This document shows positions 1 to 41,647 of a stretch of DNA of 41,647 bases, one piece after another. The notes below the pieces were generated by a model. It was not told the origin of the DNA. It made no database searches and was given only the letters and a program-made list of their open reading frames with translations. The DNA is from a virus: the IMG/VR virus record IMGVR_UViG_3300033153_003619, positions 1-41,647 of that record; one strand, 5' to 3'. Each line of letters begins with the position of its first letter. The stretch's first letter is position 1. Made by a program: the position numbers and the translations under genes.

Positions 1-114
1 AGAATTGCTTCCATTCCTAGCTGGGGATGCTACCTACACAATTACAACTGGTTTAGTTGGTGCAGGAACAGGAACTGTTACAGCTGCTGAAGGTCGTAGA
101 TGTTTTGCATTTAC
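1..114. repeat. Left copy of 114-bp terminal redundancy
   Basis: Bases 1-114 are identical to bases 41534-41647. Both copies lie inside the major capsid gene and keep the reading frame across the join, so the contig closes into a circle of 41,533 bp. This reflects a circular assembly of a circularly permuted or circularising genome. It does not by itself prove physical direct terminal repeats, because the repeat sits inside a coding gene and has a length typical of an assembler overlap. Confidence 0.95.
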
Positions 115-277
115 TTCTAAAAGAGGTATTCTACTTGCTAAAGGTAGAGAAGTTCAAGGTAGAATCGATGAATTACCTGGTAAACACTATGCACATCAAG
201 TGTATTGTGCTCTATCAGTTGGTGGTTCACGAATGGAAGAAGTGCAAGTTGTAGAAGTAATTTGTAAAGAAGTTTAA
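1..277 (+). CDS. Major capsid protein, C-terminal part (continues from 40797-41647)
   Basis: This is the 3' end of the major capsid gene. The frame enters at base 2 (Glu-Leu-Leu-Pro) and stops with TAA at 275-277. Joined to 40797-41533 it gives a 337-residue protein. The C-terminal portion holds the stretch 'KGREVQGRIDELPGKHYAHQVY', shown here as KGREVQGRIDE followed by LPGKHYAHQVY, which is a typical capsid-shell end with an Arg/Lys-rich strand. The last codons (VICKEV) are copied as non-coding DNA just downstream. See the 5' part for family evidence. There is no frameshift at the contig join. Confidence 0.9.
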   Translation, partial: ELLPFLAGDATYTITTGLVGAGTGTVTAAEGRRCFAFTSKRGILLAKGREVQGRIDELPGKHYAHQVYCALSVGGSRMEEVQVVEVICKEV

Positions 278-11744: not shown

Positions 11745-14700
11745 ATGTTTAGGAATTTAATTTTACTATTTACTATGATCGTAATTGCTAATACGGCATT
11801 TGGGGCGAAGATCATTAACACCCAACTTACTGTTGGTAGTAATGTTATGCCAGACCTGGCATCGGCATTACAAGTTGAATCAACTACTGGGGGCTTCTTA
11901 GCTCCACGTATGACAACTGTTCAAAGAGACTTATTAAATGCTCCTGTACCTAATGGGATGATGATTTACAATAGTACACTAGGCCAACTAGAAGCTTATG
12001 ATACTGGTGTTTGGTCACCGCTTGGTGGAGGATCTGGTAGAGTACCAGAATGGGTAACCCTAACTCTTTATTCAATTGGTAGTACAGTACACTACAACAA
12101 TAAATTTTATAAATCTCTAACTATACATACCTCAGGAACATTCGCTACAGATTTAGCAAATGACGAATGGGTAGAGATGAGTATGGACTACCTAGCTTGG
12201 GAGACAACTTATCAATATAAAGTAGGTAACATAGTTCACGAATCCGACCACACTTACTACTGTAAAACTGATCATGTATCAGGAACCTTTGCTACTGACC
12301 TAGCAGCTAATTGGACAGAGTTATCGGATAGTGATGACATCAAAGCAATAGTAGCTTCAACTGATAACGCTTTAGTTAGATGGGATCTAGCAACGGGGGC
12401 TGTAGTTCAAGACTCTACAGTACTAGTAGGAGATACTGGAGCTATAACAGGAATAGAATCTTTAGCTGTAGGTGGGGCACTTGATGCTTCATCAATACTT
12501 GATACTCATTCAACTACTCAAGGAACTAGGCCTTGTCCTTCTATGACAGAAGCTCAGAGGGATTTAATAGCTGCACCAGTTAATGGTTTATGTATTTTTA
12601 ATTCTGATATTAATAAATTAAATATTTATGATGGTTCAACTTGGGTTAGTGCCGGAGGTGGACTTGATGCTTGGGTAACTAGCTTTGCTTATAAGATAGG
12701 TAATGTAGTTCACGAATCTAATGGAATTTATTTAGCACTGACTGATCATACCTCAGGAACATTTGCTACAGATTTAGCTAATTTAGATTGGCAAGAACTT
12801 AGTACTTTTAGAGAAGCAAATTTTAACATTAGCCCTCCTGCAACTACTTGTAGCGAAGGTAAATTATTTTGGAATGACTTTGATAAAACTTTAAATATAT
12901 GTACTGACCAAACAGGGGTTAGTCTCCAAGCAGGTCAAGAAGGACATAAAAGAATCTATAACACTACTGGCTCAACTATTACTGACGGACAGATAGTTTA
13001 CATAAATGGGTTTGATGGAGGTAGTGGACTTTCTACAGTAGCTTTAGCTCAATCAGATGCAGCTGCAACTTCGACAGTTACTCTAGGGGTTGCCACTCAC
13101 GATATTGCTACAGGCAGTCCGGGTATTATTACAACATGGGGTACAGTAAGAGATATAAATACCTCTACATACAGTTCTGGAAACGTTCTTTACCTATCTG
13201 ATACTGTAGCTGGAGCAATGACCACAACTCCTCCAGACTCTCCACATTTCGTAGTTAGAATTGGTACTGTAGGAGAAGTTCACGCTACTACAGGATCAAT
13301 AGATGTTGCTTTAAGTATAGGCAACAATAAGCAAGATGTTGTCAGTGTATTTAATGGGGCAATATTAGAAGCACACGTTGTTACAGTAGCTTCAGATGGG
13401 GCAACTGTTACAGCTACTTTATCTAATAGTTTAGGTGGTGATTTATCTTTATTCCTTAACACAGGTTTTTATGTTTTTACAGCTCCTGCTAACGTAACAC
13501 TTACTGCTGGATCAGATACTTCTCCAACTTTAAATTATGTGTATATTCCAGATAGTACAAAAACTTTGACAGCAAGTACTGCCGGATGGCCTGCTGAACA
13601 ACATGTACCTGTTGGTACATTCTTTGTACAAAGTGCTGGCTCTGTCCAGACAGATGCTCCATACAAGGAACATGCTTGGACAGACCACATGACAGGTGGA
13701 GATGGTCAGGGACATATTTCACATTTAAACAAGTGGATTAGAAATCAACACGCTACTTGGTTAAGTGGATCAGCTCCTACATTCGCAGGAAGTGGAACTG
13801 GTAGTATTACTTTTTCTGCTACCTCTGGAACGGTTTTACAATTGCATGAACATAGTGTTCAAGCTTTTGGAAGTCCAGCGGAAGTTAGAGTTATCAATGA
13901 TTCAGTAACTCCTTATGTCTCTATGACAGATTTAGTTAACGCTACTCTAGATTCTACAGGAGCTTCATTACAAGGTAGGACATTTGCTCTTACAATTTGG
14001 GGAAGTGTAAACGAGACTACTGGAAGCTCTAAATTATTTATGAACTTACCTAGTGGGTCTTACTCTAGCTCAAGTCCTGATTTAGTAAGAACTGATGCTA
14101 GTAAATATACTGATTATAGTATCCCTGATGAGTTCAAAGGCACTGGATTTTTAATCCATAGATTAGTAATAGGTATAAATCCTCCGGGAACTGTCTGGAC
14201 TATTTATGCTGGAGATGGTGACGATATTAGGGGTCAGTTCCCTAATACTGTTGCTGGTTCTTCATCAACTGTAGCTACGGAATTTCCTGATAACGCTTTT
14301 GCTGTATTTAATGTAGCAGATAATACTAAAGAAGTTGTACTTGATGTTAGTGGAGTTACAACTGGTAACACTAGAACTTTAACTATTCCTGATGCTAGTG
14401 GAACATTAGCATTACTTGATAGTGGAGTTGATCAGGTATTCACTAGTGACGTTAGATCTACTAATAAGAATGGTGACACTTTAGCTTACGCTGATGCTGA
14501 TAATGTTCTTTTAACATCTTGGGGTGATGCTTTAACAACATCAACTTTTAGTGAGGAAACAGTTAATCAAATTAGTGGATTAGTTTCTTATGAAATAGCA
14601 GTTGTTACAGCAGAAGCTGGATGGGTTCAATCACCTTCAGTAGTTGTAGAGAAAAGAAGTCAAGGTAACTTAATAGCAAGTAAATTTAAGTACACATACG

Positions 14701-16634
14701 ATGGCGATAATGGGGATATGAAGGCGTATCTTTATGACGTTACTAATAGTCAGACTCTTGGTGAGCTTTACTTAGATGCTGCGTCTACAGTTAAAGGTGC
14801 AGTAGTTTACGGAAACGCTGCCGATACGACAGCTCTCATACAATTAAGGATTGAGGCTGCTGTTGTTAATAATGGAAAGCTCTTAGTATTTGATGATGTT
14901 GAATTTACTGATGCTGCTTTGGCGAGCGCTAATATAAATGGTGTTAGTCATACATACATTATAAATCAGGCTGGCAGCGCACTAACAAATAGAGCTGGTG
15001 AGATAGAGTTCAACTTAGCTACCGCCACAATAGAGAATACTGACACTGATCTTTTAAGTGTTGTTGATGATTCCTCAAATACTAGAACTAAATTCATAGC
15101 GACAAGAAGCATCTCGGTTGTAGCATCATTTTCGGCAGTAACTGGGAATATTACAGGGTACGCACAAATATATAAAAACGGTGTGGCTTTTATAGATGGA
15201 AATCAGGCTTATGCTGCAAGTAGAAAGGTGATTATATCCTCCCCAGTACACTTAAACGCAGGGGAATATCTAACTTTTGGAGTTATTGGTGACACAGAGA
15301 ACGGAGCTGGTAATACTCTTGCCTCAGTAACCGCCACAGCTTCCAACGAACACGTTTTGATTGGTGATGAGAGACAGCAAGCGCATTTTGTTGGAAAAGC
15401 TCAATATGTCTTGAGTGCTGATTACTCTACTACAAGTACTAGCTACGTTCTTCCTTCATTGACACTAGCAAGTTCGTCAGTAAGTGGTGGAGTTATCCAG
15501 AATACAGTAAACTCCCCAAGTATAACAATTCCAGACGCTAAGGTTGGGACGTATAAAATAACGGTGACAGGTCAAATAGGTAATGACGTAGGGAACTGGG
15601 GGCATACGGCAATATATGATGGAACAACGTACTTCTCAGAACAAGCGGAAAGGAATGCTTATGTTTCTACAATGACTTTTAGTGTAGATAATATTACTGA
15701 AGGTGATTTAAACCTTGATCTTGTTCTAAAAACTAACGGAACAATACGTATAGAACACTTGGCAACTAACCCTAATCTAGAATTGTCAGTAACCTACCTC
15801 CCCCCAGTCGAAGAAGCTTCAGTAATAACTACAGTCGCACTTCCTCAGAGTGAGAAAAATAGTTACGCTGCAAGAATTGCTAACAATGGAACGGCAAGTA
15901 TCACAAGTGTTGATGCTGATTTCATTGAGAGTGTTACTAGAAGTGCCGATGGAGTAGTTGATATAGTATGGAAAGTTGGGGTTTTTACAGTAGCACCATC
16001 TGTTGTTGCTACTATGGACGATACGTCAATTAGGAGTATGGCGATTGAGGCTGTTACTGCTTTAGGTGTCACAATAAAAGCATATATACCTAATAACCTA
16101 ACACTATCAGATAAAAACTTCTCAATAAAAGTAACCAAGCAAGGCGCAGACGCAAGCAGCGGTCAGGTTTATGTTGGGACAGTTCCACGACATCAGGTTA
16201 TGTATGTTAAGGATGTTAAACCAAGTGGAACAAATGGTGGAAACTTTGCTAGTGGGGCGTGGAAAGAGAGGGATCTTACAGAATTAAGTGGGGATATATT
16301 TGGTAGCCTGTCTGGCGGCATAGTTACCGTTCCTGCCGGAACTTATGAGGTAGAGGCTTCTGCCCCGGCATCTGATGTTGATAGTCATAAAATAAAACTA
16401 TACGATCTCACGGCAGCAGCAGACTTAATAATAGGTAACAATGCTCAGAATCCGTCGGGACATAGTGGTCAAACACATTCATCCTTGTTTGGGACTATAA
16501 CACTTACTGTTACTACAGAACTCAGGCTCAGGCACAGGTGTACAACCACGCAGCTATCTAATGGGTTTGGTATTCAAACTGGGTACGGTGTAGATGAAAT
16601 ATACGCACAAATGAAGATTACAAAAATTAGATAG
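11745..16634 (+). CDS. Giant tail fibre / adhesin with N-terminal signal peptide (1629 aa)
   Basis: Residues 1-21 are a classic Sec signal peptide: MFRN, then a hydrophobic core LILLFTMIVIA, then NTAFGA before Lys. Residues about 46-95 and 256-306 are two 'GFLAPRMTTVQRDLL ... GMMIYNS' modules, a pattern frequent in secreted surface proteins. Three W modules (about 100-147, 150-194, 307-352) each end in HxSGTFATDLA. A long beta-rich shaft and probable C-terminal receptor-binding region follow. The ATG at 11745 uses TAGGAG. The gene sits where the host-recognition fibre is expected. Because of the signal peptide it could also be a secreted protein. I favour a fibre whose N-terminal part came from a host surface gene. 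Confidence 0.65.
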   Translation: MFRNLILLFTMIVIANTAFGAKIINTQLTVGSNVMPDLASALQVESTTGGFLAPRMTTVQRDLLNAPVPNGMMIYNSTLGQLEAYDTGVWSPLGGGSGRVPEWVTLTLYSIGSTVHYNNKFYKSLTIHTSGTFATDLANDEWVEMSMDYLAWETTYQYKVGNIVHESDHTYYCKTDHVSGTFATDLAANWTELSDSDDIKAIVASTDNALVRWDLATGAVVQDSTVLVGDTGAITGIESLAVGGALDASSILDTHSTTQGTRPCPSMTEAQRDLIAAPVNGLCIFNSDINKLNIYDGSTWVSAGGGLDAWVTSFAYKIGNVVHESNGIYLALTDHTSGTFATDLANLDWQELSTFREANFNISPPATTCSEGKLFWNDFDKTLNICTDQTGVSLQAGQEGHKRIYNTTGSTITDGQIVYINGFDGGSGLSTVALAQSDAAATSTVTLGVATHDIATGSPGIITTWGTVRDINTSTYSSGNVLYLSDTVAGAMTTTPPDSPHFVVRIGTVGEVHATTGSIDVALSIGNNKQDVVSVFNGAILEAHVVTVASDGATVTATLSNSLGGDLSLFLNTGFYVFTAPANVTLTAGSDTSPTLNYVYIPDSTKTLTASTAGWPAEQHVPVGTFFVQSAGSVQTDAPYKEHAWTDHMTGGDGQGHISHLNKWIRNQHATWLSGSAPTFAGSGTGSITFSATSGTVLQLHEHSVQAFGSPAEVRVINDSVTPYVSMTDLVNATLDSTGASLQGRTFALTIWGSVNETTGSSKLFMNLPSGSYSSSSPDLVRTDASKYTDYSIPDEFKGTGFLIHRLVIGINPPGTVWTIYAGDGDDIRGQFPNTVAGSSSTVATEFPDNAFAVFNVADNTKEVVLDVSGVTTGNTRTLTIPDASGTLALLDSGVDQVFTSDVRSTNKNGDTLAYADADNVLLTSWGDALTTSTFSEETVNQISGLVSYEIAVVTAEAGWVQSPSVVVEKRSQGNLIASKFKYTYDGDNGDMKAYLYDVTNSQTLGELYLDAASTVKGAVVYGNAADTTALIQLRIEAAVVNNGKLLVFDDVEFTDAALASANINGVSHTYIINQAGSALTNRAGEIEFNLATATIENTDTDLLSVVDDSSNTRTKFIATRSISVVASFSAVTGNITGYAQIYKNGVAFIDGNQAYAASRKVIISSPVHLNAGEYLTFGVIGDTENGAGNTLASVTATASNEHVLIGDERQQAHFVGKAQYVLSADYSTTSTSYVLPSLTLASSSVSGGVIQNTVNSPSITIPDAKVGTYKITVTGQIGNDVGNWGHTAIYDGTTYFSEQAERNAYVSTMTFSVDNITEGDLNLDLVLKTNGTIRIEHLATNPNLELSVTYLPPVEEASVITTVALPQSEKNSYAARIANNGTASITSVDADFIESVTRSADGVVDIVWKVGVFTVAPSVVATMDDTSIRSMAIEAVTALGVTIKAYIPNNLTLSDKNFSIKVTKQGADASSGQVYVGTVPRHQVMYVKDVKPSGTNGGNFASGAWKERDLTELSGDIFGSLSGGIVTVPAGTYEVEASAPASDVDSHKIKLYDLTAAADLIIGNNAQNPSGHSGQTHSSLFGTITLTVTTELRLRHRCTTTQLSNGFGIQTGYGVDEIYAQMKITKIR

Positions 16635-35184: not shown

Positions 35185-35278
35185 AACCCCTCATGTTGTA
35201 AATCAGATAATATCAATTAACACATTGTGTTAACCCCTCATGTTGTAAATCAGATAATATCAATTAACACATTGTGTT
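35185..35278. repeat. 47-bp tandem repeat, two copies, each with a 17-bp dyad
   Basis: Units 35185-35231 and 35232-35278 are identical. Each contains GTAAATCAGATAATATCAAT and a dyad: TTAACACATTGTGTTAA (35217-35233, perfect around a central T) and the same with a last-base change at 35264-35280. TTAACC, 17 bases, GATAAT across the unit junction is a possible promoter. Candidate operators or origin iterons. Confidence 0.8.
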
Positions 35279-39371: not shown

Positions 39372-39641
39372 ATGGATAAAATTACAGCTGAAAAAGCAGT
39401 ACATATGAGTGCTGTTTACAAGAAAACTTTCGAGGGCCCCGAAGGTGAAGAGGTGTTGGTGGACCTAATGCAAACTTTTGGTTTCTTTAGTACAACATTT
39501 GTTGAGGGTGATTCTCATGCATCGGCATTTGCTGAAGGTGCAAGAGCTGCAGTATTAAGAATTATTGATACAGTAGAAGTTGATCCAAGTAAATTTTTAG
39601 AAATGATGAAAGAAGTAAATCAGGAGGTATTTGATGAATAA
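39372..39641 (+). CDS. Bbp19-like small head protein
   Basis: An 89-residue protein with the Bbp19 pattern: YKKTFEGPEGEEVLVDLMQT, then a gap, then AFAEGARAAVLRIIDTV ('f.sp.G..vL.dL...f........f.eG.ravvl.I'). In BPP-1 the family lies between portal and scaffold/capsid, as here. Role not established; it may be an assembly factor. ATG 39372 follows AGAGGTACAA. The scaffold gene starts inside its 3' end. Confidence 0.75.
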   Translation: MDKITAEKAVHMSAVYKKTFEGPEGEEVLVDLMQTFGFFSTTFVEGDSHASAFAEGARAAVLRIIDTVEVDPSKFLEMMKEVNQEVFDE

Positions 39642-40632
39642 GTTTTTAATGTTTTTAAGTTTAATGGTACTATCACAAAGAGGTTCTGCAGGAGTAGAAC
39701 CAACTCCGGAAGGTGGTGGGGCTCCAGCATCTGAACTTGACAATGGAGGTCAAAATGGCGGAAGTCCAGACCCTACTAGCTCTGAGCCTGATAGCTCAAA
39801 TAGCAACTCTAATAGTCCTGATCCAGTTCCGGTTTCTATTTACGGTGATAGAACGGTAGCTTGGCCAGAAGGAATGGAAGATGTTCTAAAAAATGAACCA
39901 TCTTTAAAGCCGTTCGTTGGAGATGATGGGGCACTTAATGTAGCAAATCTACTTAAGTCGTATCATCATACAAAGAAAATGCAAGGGGTGGACAAAACTT
40001 CCCTACCTACTGAAAACTCAACTGAAGAAGAGCTTCAAGAGTTTCATAACAAGTTAGGTGCTTCTAGTGAAATTGATGCTTATAAGATTGAAGCTATTGA
40101 AAACTCTAATTTAGAGGCAGATTTTACAGGGGCCTTACAGAAGTTCGCTCATGAGAATAAACTACCCGTAGGAGTAGCTAAGCAATTAAACACTTTCATG
40201 GAAACGCAAGCTGCAAGCGGTGTTGAAGCTGCGAAGGCCGCTAATGCTAAAAGTATTACTGATGGTTTAGACACTGTAAAAAAAGAAATGGGTTCGGCCT
40301 ACGATAGTAAACTTAGTCTAGCTAAGAGAGTAATTAACGATCTAGTAGCTGATGAAGAATTGACGAAAGCTTTTAAGGATCCAGCTTTAGGTAGTCATCC
40401 TGCCGTTCTTAAGACTTTAATGAAAATTGGTGAGAAACTTTATAAAGAAGATGGCTTTAAAGGTGCTGATAACAGACCAGATGTGTACTCTCCAGAAGAA
40501 GCAGCAGGAAAAATTACTGATATTTTAGGGGATGCCAATCACGCATACAACAAGCCAGAACACCCTAGTCACGCTAAAGCACAGAAAGATATGTTAAAAT
40601 TGTTTGAAATGAAGAATAGTCAGTATAAATAA
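39634..40632 (+). CDS. Scaffold protein with hydrophobic N-terminal leader
   Basis: A 332-residue scaffold. After a Pro/Gly/Ser/Asn-rich linker (about 20-68) it has WPEGMEDVLKNEPSLKPFVG and LNVANLLKSYHHTKKMQGVD, the classic podoviral scaffold signature, and a helical C-terminus with KPEHPSHAKAQKDMLKLFE. Start ATG 39634 has a perfect AGGAGG five bases upstream, so the leader MNKFLMFLSLMVLSQRGSAG is translated. That leader is hydrophobic and resembles the start of the capsid protein. Scaffolds normally begin without such a segment. Confidence 0.85.
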   Translation: MNKFLMFLSLMVLSQRGSAGVEPTPEGGGAPASELDNGGQNGGSPDPTSSEPDSSNSNSNSPDPVPVSIYGDRTVAWPEGMEDVLKNEPSLKPFVGDDGALNVANLLKSYHHTKKMQGVDKTSLPTENSTEEELQEFHNKLGASSEIDAYKIEAIENSNLEADFTGALQKFAHENKLPVGVAKQLNTFMETQAASGVEAAKAANAKSITDGLDTVKKEMGSAYDSKLSLAKRVINDLVADEELTKAFKDPALGSHPAVLKTLMKIGEKLYKEDGFKGADNRPDVYSPEEAAGKITDILGDANHAYNKPEHPSHAKAQKDMLKLFEMKNSQYK

Positions 40633-40635
40633 AAC

Positions 40636-40665
40636 TTGACACGAATCTATATGTTCGCTTATCCT
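40636..40665 (+). promoter_or_regulatory. Sigma70-type promoter for the major capsid gene
   Basis: Perfect TTGACA (40636-40641), 18 bases, TATCCT (40660-40665). The -10 overlaps the left arm of a long hairpin. Leader to the capsid ATG is about 125 bases. Confidence 0.6.
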
Positions 40666-40699
40666 AGGATTATGTACGATTGGAGTACCTAATCCTAGG
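40663..40699 (+). promoter_or_regulatory. Long hairpin/dyad upstream of capsid gene
   Basis: CCTAGGATTA (40663-40672) and TAATCCTAGG (40690-40699) are exact reverse complements. Inside, GTAC pairs with GTAC (40674-40677, 40685-40688) around GATTGGA. No T tract follows, so it is not a standard terminator. It may be an RNA processing or stability element on read-through message, or an operator covering the -10. Confidence 0.7.
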
Positions 40700-40796
40700 C
40701 CCATCAAAAATCTTGCATAGATCTGACCCTCCCAGAGGAATATCTAATCGAAAATGGTAATTAGTGTTTTTTATTAATATTTAACTGGAGAAGGAA

Positions 40797-41647
40797 ATGA
40801 AATTCTTTTTAATGTTTTTAAATTTTTTCTTCTATGCGATAAAATCAAATAGAGGATCAATTCAAGTATCAACATCAATGGTTGATATGTTTAGTGCAAA
40901 TGTAATGCATCTTTCACAACAGTCAGAATCTCGACTTTATGCTTACGCAAGAAATGAGACCCAAGATTCTGAGAGTAAATTTTACGATAGAATCGGGTTG
41001 AGAGAGACTCGAAGAAAAGAGGGTCGTCACTCTGATGTTGTATACGATGACACTCCACATAGTAGACGTATGGTTACCATGGAAGACTTCTATTCTTCTG
41101 ACATGGTGGATCAAGAAGATAAGATACGAACTATCATGAATATCGATAATGAGTATGTTATAGCCAATGCTGGCGCACTAGGTCGTAGGTATGATGAGGA
41201 AATCATCACAGCTGCTCTAGGTAATGCGTATGGTGGGAAGAAAGGAACTACTCCTATTGCTCTTCCAGACTCTCAAAAAGTAGCTTGTTTTGATCCAGCG
41301 ATCGCAACTACTGTTGGGCTTGGGCTTAATGTTCCAACTCTTAGAGCTGTAAGAAAGAAATTTAAGCAGAGTGAAGCAATCAAAAAAGGTGAGAAACTTA
41401 TTTTTGCTTGTGCTGCTCAACAGATGGATGACCTTCTTGGAACAACTGCTGTTACTTCAGCAGACTACAATACTGTAAAGGCCCTTGTTGACGGTGAAGT
41501 TGACACATTTATGGGATTTAAGTTTGTTGAAACAGAATTGCTTCCATTCCTAGCTGGGGATGCTACCTACACAATTACAACTGGTTTAGTTGGTGCAGGA
41601 ACAGGAACTGTTACAGCTGCTGAAGGTCGTAGATGTTTTGCATTTAC
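40797..41647 (+). CDS. Major capsid protein, N-terminal part (Bbp17-like; continues at 1-277)
   Basis: Start ATG 40797 with GGAG six bases upstream. Residues about 25-80 show the family pattern (FSANVMHLSQQSESRLYAYA, FYDRIGLRETRRKEGRHSD, DTPHSRRMVTMEDFYSSDMV, DQEDKIRTIMN), then GALGRRYDEEIITAALGNAY, typical of BPP-1-type HK97-fold shells. The first 21 residues (MKFFLMFLNFFFYAIKSNRG) are a hydrophobic leader not expected in the family, whose usual start is near STSMVDMFSA. The 337-residue total is normal if the leader is removed. The gene is split by the contig ends. Confidence 0.9.
   Translation, partial: MKFFLMFLNFFFYAIKSNRGSIQVSTSMVDMFSANVMHLSQQSESRLYAYARNETQDSESKFYDRIGLRETRRKEGRHSDVVYDDTPHSRRMVTMEDFYSSDMVDQEDKIRTIMNIDNEYVIANAGALGRRYDEEIITAALGNAYGGKKGTTPIALPDSQKVACFDPAIATTVGLGLNVPTLRAVRKKFKQSEAIKKGEKLIFACAAQQMDDLLGTTAVTSADYNTVKALVDGEVDTFMGFKFVETELLPFLAGDATYTITTGLVGAGTGTVTAAEGRRCFAF
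41534..41647. repeat. Right copy of 114-bp terminal redundancy
   Basis: Exact repeat of bases 1-114. It shows that the window is one full circle. Confidence 0.95.

Follow-up and report, generated by a model that had tools for sequence, protein, structure and literature searches.

In the window, that is, the whole stretch of 41,647 nucleotides analysed here, the genes for the scaffold protein and for the capsid protein both begin with a hydrophobic stretch closing in R-G-S. The question is whether these leaders are made, how they are distributed among related T7-like phages from environmental DNA, and what they may do. The window represents a phage genome in circularly permuted form, its bases 1-114 recurring at 41534-41647; the capsid open reading frame runs off its end, but, because of this 114-base terminal overlap, the whole gene could be assembled across the genome joint (40797-41533 plus 1-277), giving a product of 337 amino acids. 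The features of the locus are collected in Table 1. Leader sequences, coordinates and well-placed Shine-Dalgarno sites are as described in an earlier sequence-only reading. The sequence AATCAGGAGGTATTTG also precedes the scaffold ATG in the related loci L209 and L210, and TTTAACTGGAGA is conserved before the capsid ATG in L209 and in L210, whose capsid is leaderless.

Table 1. Features of the scaffold-capsid region, in window coordinates.
Feature	Position	Strand	Basis
Shine-Dalgarno site AGGAGG of scaffold gene	39622..39627	+	direct reading
Scaffold leader MNKFLMFLSLMVLSQRG, 17 aa, followed by Ser18	39634..39684	+	direct reading
Scaffold protein gene, 332 aa, phrog_3742	39634..40632	+	E 1.4e-32; all-helical AF2 model
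Stem-loop in scaffold-capsid gap	40663..40699	+	whole-gap z -2.8
Shine-Dalgarno site GGAG of capsid gene	40787..40790	+	direct reading
Capsid leader MKFFLMFLNFFFYAIKSNRG, 20 aa	40797..40856	+	direct reading; most relatives without leader
Capsid body from Ser21 (Ser2 of leaderless capsids)	40857..41647, then 1-277	+	PF19821 from residue 24
3' part of capsid gene (terminal overlap: 1-114)	1..277	+	

Within the gap between the two genes, positions 40636-40699 hold a promoter-like TTGACA-18-TATCCT and a long stem-loop, at which a terminator-like tail was looked for and not found. Elsewhere in the window, a 47-base unit is present as two exact tandem copies (35185-35278).

The capsid protein, which reads SIQVSTSMVDMF from Ser21 onwards, matches PF19821 (E 2e-49), the Pfam match starting at residue 24, past the leader. 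Its profile matches T7 gp10A (E 2e-8) and LME-1 (E 6.5e-14), both of which were also matched by Foldseek (9eg4, 3j7w). It is a T7-like major capsid protein with the HK97 fold, lacking the usual direct start at the N-arm, a feature not strictly defining for such capsids; no second, leaderless capsid gene was found in the window genome. The upstream gene belongs to the phrog_3742 scaffold family by homology, by its position ahead of the capsid gene and by its helical structure, the AF2 model being all-helical, with a helix at residues 3-14 followed by a disordered Gly/Pro/acidic linker. Members of the scaffold family carry protease labels (phrog_458 in PHROGs; a "putative protease" homologue in MW202510, MW202510.1). 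The all-helical model, for which no structural match to any protease in the PDB was found, speaks against the scaffold as a protease and suggests that the label is wrong.

Most relatives of the capsid begin directly with Met-Ser. In all leadered capsids the codon ahead of the conserved Ser specifies Gly, an ordinary start at that point is impossible, and no Shine-Dalgarno sites were found at later in-frame starts. An internal start downstream of the leader can thus be ruled out, and, since there is no start codon where the relatives begin, the capsid leader must be translated, as had been predicted. In L210, sister to the window and L209, a very similar upstream region and ribosome site lead to an ATG which directly adjoins the Ser codon, so that the leader corresponds to a clean in-frame block.

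In order to evaluate the likeness of the two leaders, they were compared at both the DNA and the protein level. A run of 16 bases, TTTTTAATGTTTTTAA, is found only at 39643 and 40806, in identical register from the two ATGs. The local alignment score of the two leaders, 35, was reached by none of 5000 codon shuffles and by none of 5000 random genome pairs. When 695 distinct ORF N-termini of the window and its relatives were searched for the pattern [NSGTA]xRG[SN] within residues 9-50, 16 had it, 15 of them scaffold or capsid; this restriction rules out the leader as a general tag of other virion proteins. The junction is encoded by different codons in different lineages (AGA, AGG, CGC or CGA for Arg; GGA, GGT or GGC for Gly; TCA, TCT, TCG or AGC for Ser), which places the signal in the protein and rules out an element acting at the DNA or RNA level. 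The likeness of the leaders and their common R-G-S end, proposed by the sequence-only reading, therefore hold for the proteins. The shared DNA to which it had also pointed is real in the window, where it is 16 bases long, but is special to that genome: around FSNRGS, 15 of 18 bases are alike between the two genes of L209, and no comparable likeness is seen in L053, L033 and L227.

Nearly all related capsids begin with MSxQIT, with a ribosome site just upstream. Nine distinct capsids carry a leader (window, L209, L001, L265, L027, L029, L033, L053, identical to L032, and L227, identical to L228-L230). All nine leaders are hydrophobic and fast-changing, 18 to 46 residues long; their last two residues are Arg-Gly, and the Ser that immediately follows corresponds to residue 2 of leaderless capsids. 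Between the window and L209, amino acid identity is 9/20 in the leader and 272/317 in the body; the figures for L029 and L033 are 14/18 and 267/310. In the pairs compared, dN is lower than dS in the leaders, on few sites, and amino acid change is faster than in the body. On these sequences, the capsid leaders are translated and evolve in the manner of targeting peptides.

With leader residues left out of the capsid tree, the hypothesis that all leaders form a single clade is rejected (p-AU 2.4e-18). The starred branches of this tree require at least three changes, and the tree including L265 needs four, counts which by themselves do not separate gain from loss. On the tree, capsid leaders occupy no fewer than three and probably four separate positions, and the leader 5' end may have moved among capsids by recombination.

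The two leaders tend to be found together. Among 100 distinct pairs of capsid and scaffold starts, counted before L265 was added, 6 have both leaders, 7 the scaffold leader only, 87 neither, and none the capsid leader only. Seven capsid-leader genomes are readable at both gene starts; in 6 of them the scaffold has a leader as well, ending in NERG[SN], NEAGN, SNRGS or SQRGS; in the remaining one, L265, the capsid leader is paired with a scaffold whose short hydrophobic helix ends in QEEAG, not in RG[SN]. The expected co-occurrence is thus borne out in most genomes, but is one-sided, the scaffold leader standing without a capsid leader at six loci (L210, L166, L219, L220, L023 and L112). A phylogeny-corrected test, performed without L265, rests on 2 independent pairs, too few to prove correlated evolution.

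About one third of the distinct scaffold N-termini in the family show a short hydrophobic or amphipathic helix followed by a linker (25 of 94 satisfy a simple rule, and by eye several others clearly qualify), and in many relatives this helix is present without RG. The scaffold leader can accordingly be regarded as a longer, elaborated version of something common in the family, whereas the real oddity is the leader on the capsid; the statement that neither family normally carries a leader is correct for the capsid and does not hold for the scaffold. After the Gly, scaffolds usually have Ser or Asn, even though the linker that comes next is disordered. A short basic/aromatic N-terminal helix was noted in scaffolds L008, L009, L015, L018, L028, L068, L106, L108 and L110, on distant family branches; it often ends in [NQE]E, followed by a Gly/Pro/acidic linker.

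The capsid leaders have a net charge of +1 to +4 and a best 11-residue mean hydropathy of 1.6 to 3.1; scaffold leaders of the L053 group are weaker in these respects. On the capsids of this group the leaders are amphipathic, whereas the window leaders are hydrophobic on all sides. In the AF2 model of the L209 capsid, the leader forms a helix (2-17), separated by a break (18-19) from the N-arm helix (20-44). The leader of L027 (capsid gene at L157:396-1469), which is sister to L029 and L053 on the capsid tree, opens with an apparently canonical Sec signal peptide, MKYLLLSLLILFAFSPVRALA, followed by KE, ahead of its QRGS junction; L027 alone has an internal ALA site.

A Sec-type signal peptide, MFRNLILLFTMIVIANTAFGA, was noted on a very large tail fibre-like protein of the window (11745-16634). 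Homologues with such a signal occur in three other leadered genomes (L151:825, L154:3373, L156:8356), while the large proteins of the leaderless genomes G009-G013 showed none. The MAT adhesins of Bdellovibrio, fibre proteins that are secreted and have a conserved domain directly after the signal peptide (PMC10769870), are a possible source. When the tail fibre was used to search for a host, the first scan gave no matches; the best genome match of the second was a Bacteriovoracaceae MAG, followed mainly by Bacteroidota.

The leaders have traits of prohead delta domains, of Sec signal peptides and of prepilin/Flp leaders, but for each of the three they lack a defining feature that was tested. 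Prohead delta domains, such as those of T4 gp23 and of the HK97 major capsid protein, are likewise N-terminal capsid pieces, accompanied by a processed scaffold and a common cleavage motif; in T4, gp21 removes 65 N-terminal residues of gp23 (PMC9958956). The present leaders differ in being 18-46 hydrophobic residues on a T7-like capsid, with an RG/[SN] motif only suggestive of cleavage, and no phage-encoded protease was recognised in the head module among the window proteins scanned. Sec signal peptides share with the leaders a positive N-end, a hydrophobic core, variable sequence and length and a fixed end, and the capsid leaders do have a positive n-region and a hydrophobic core; their end, however, is RG/S, not the AxA of signal peptidase I, and what they are attached to is a head protein of the cytoplasm rather than a protein for secretion. 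In the leaders of type IV prepilins and of Flp/TadE there is a Gly at -1, often preceded by R or K, as do all nine capsid leaders with their RG, and the Flp/TadE consensus end is [N/D]E[RK]G/[S/A]. Here, by contrast, the hydrophobic stretch precedes the Gly rather than following it, and the scaffolds go on with a Gly/Pro/acidic linker; no Pfam or NCBIfam HMM match was obtained, which speaks against homology with prepilin or TadE leaders. With T7-like capsid (gp10A, PF19821) and scaffold pairs, capsid fold and gene order are alike, while the leader is missing in most relatives. T4 prohead assembly begins on the inner membrane, through the portal gp20 with gp40 and YidC (PMC9958956); T4 is thus tethered by its portal, whereas here the scaffold and the capsid themselves would be.

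The explanation we favour, tentatively and at somewhat less than an even chance, is that signal-peptide-like leaders gather scaffold and capsid at the inner membrane and are then removed at RG/S. The hydrophobic helix of each nascent chain would carry the protein to the cytoplasmic face of the membrane, and head assembly would begin where the two are concentrated. A membrane-associated peptidase, most likely supplied by the host, would cut between Gly and Ser, leaving on the capsid an N-terminal Ser, the expected N-terminus of leaderless relatives (Met-Ser minus Met). That the leaders contact the membrane, that they are cleaved, and what kind of peptidase cuts them are what we infer; a host enzyme would probably be needed, since Pfam and PHROGs scans brought out no peptidase or protease among the window proteins covered, and none of the window genes common only to leadered genomes resembles a peptidase. 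A targeting leader cut at RG/S is favoured by a junction that never varies, by a hydrophobic body that does, by the Sec-type signal of L027 and by the scaffold Ser/Asn after Gly. The absence of a single clade of capsid leaders, the codon differences at the junction and the leadered scaffolds in 6 of the 7 readable genomes also speak for it. A variable body with a constant RG/S is the pattern that would be expected of cleaved targeting peptides; L027 looks as though membrane targeting had been retained as the function; and Ser or Asn after Gly seems easier to reconcile with a P1' residue than with a helix cap. Of the uses suggested by the sequence-only reading, membrane tethering and removal after R-G appear to fit the pattern best. 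Several points count against a cleaved membrane leader: no peptidase was recognised in the scans mentioned, RG/S does not conform to the site of signal peptidase I, many relatives have the scaffold helix but no RG, the fixed junction could also be accounted for by a Gly helix cap, a strong Sec signal should be harmful on an abundant capsid protein and, to our knowledge, capsid and scaffold are not processed in T7, the nearest model.

The main rival, itself possible but doubtful, is that the leaders are uncleaved assembly helices with no membrane role: the scaffold helix would bind a procapsid partner (scaffold, portal or core), and the capsid would have borrowed it as a small built-in scaffold, the Gly-Ser being a break before the N-arm helix. 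It gains from the frequency of a helix and flexible linker in the scaffold family, even without RG, from the AF2 models (helix-break-helix in the L209 capsid, helix 3-14 plus linker in the scaffold), from the amphipathic capsid leaders of the L053 group, and from L265, whose capsid leader stands beside a plain QEEAG scaffold helix. It leaves unexplained why the capsid Arg-Gly is invariant, without linker variation, why leader sequence and length vary so widely, and why L027 has a Sec-type signal; moreover, the window leaders are hydrophobic all round and not amphipathic.

Other readings carry less weight. Delta-domain-like pieces, cut in the procapsid by a phage prohead protease at a site common to scaffold and capsid, would account for a motif on exactly the two proteins such an enzyme would cut, and the protease labels of MW202510 and phrog_458 point the same way; the scaffold model is nevertheless all-helical and like no protease structure, no other candidate emerged from the window proteins scanned, and the family is T7-like, so that this is improbable. 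There is likewise a small chance that the scaffold 5' end was copied onto the capsid gene within each genome, the likeness being mainly historical. The in-register bases of the window and the FSNRGS region of L209 agree with this, but L053, L033 and L227 lack comparable DNA likeness, the RG/S junction outlasts the sequence likeness, L265 has a capsid leader with no matching scaffold end, and copying would account for origin and not for upkeep. An annotation artefact with true starts downstream, or an A+T-rich start merely helping initiation, is very improbable: the 5' codons are indeed A+T-rich, but a Gly codon precedes the conserved Ser, internal starts lack Shine-Dalgarno sites, dN is below dS in the capsid leaders (on few sites), and RGS is kept with varied codons.

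The broadest form of the favoured reading, that a tailed phage lineage repeatedly evolved cleavable membrane leaders on scaffold and capsid, cut by a host peptidase at a non-canonical RG/S in an obligatory host processing step, which would make head assembly a membrane event, is rather unlikely. The literature searched, itself incomplete, yielded no description of scaffold and capsid leaders of this kind. T7-like heads are, as far as we know, the textbook example of heads that assemble with no proteolysis, and neither of the two proteins has a known membrane anchor. The repeated presence of an identical leader junction on the capsid, mostly beside a scaffold with a similar end, indicates that the place or the manner in which these heads form is under a real constraint; if cleavage is true, virion formation in these phages would depend on a peptidase in a way so far unrecognised.
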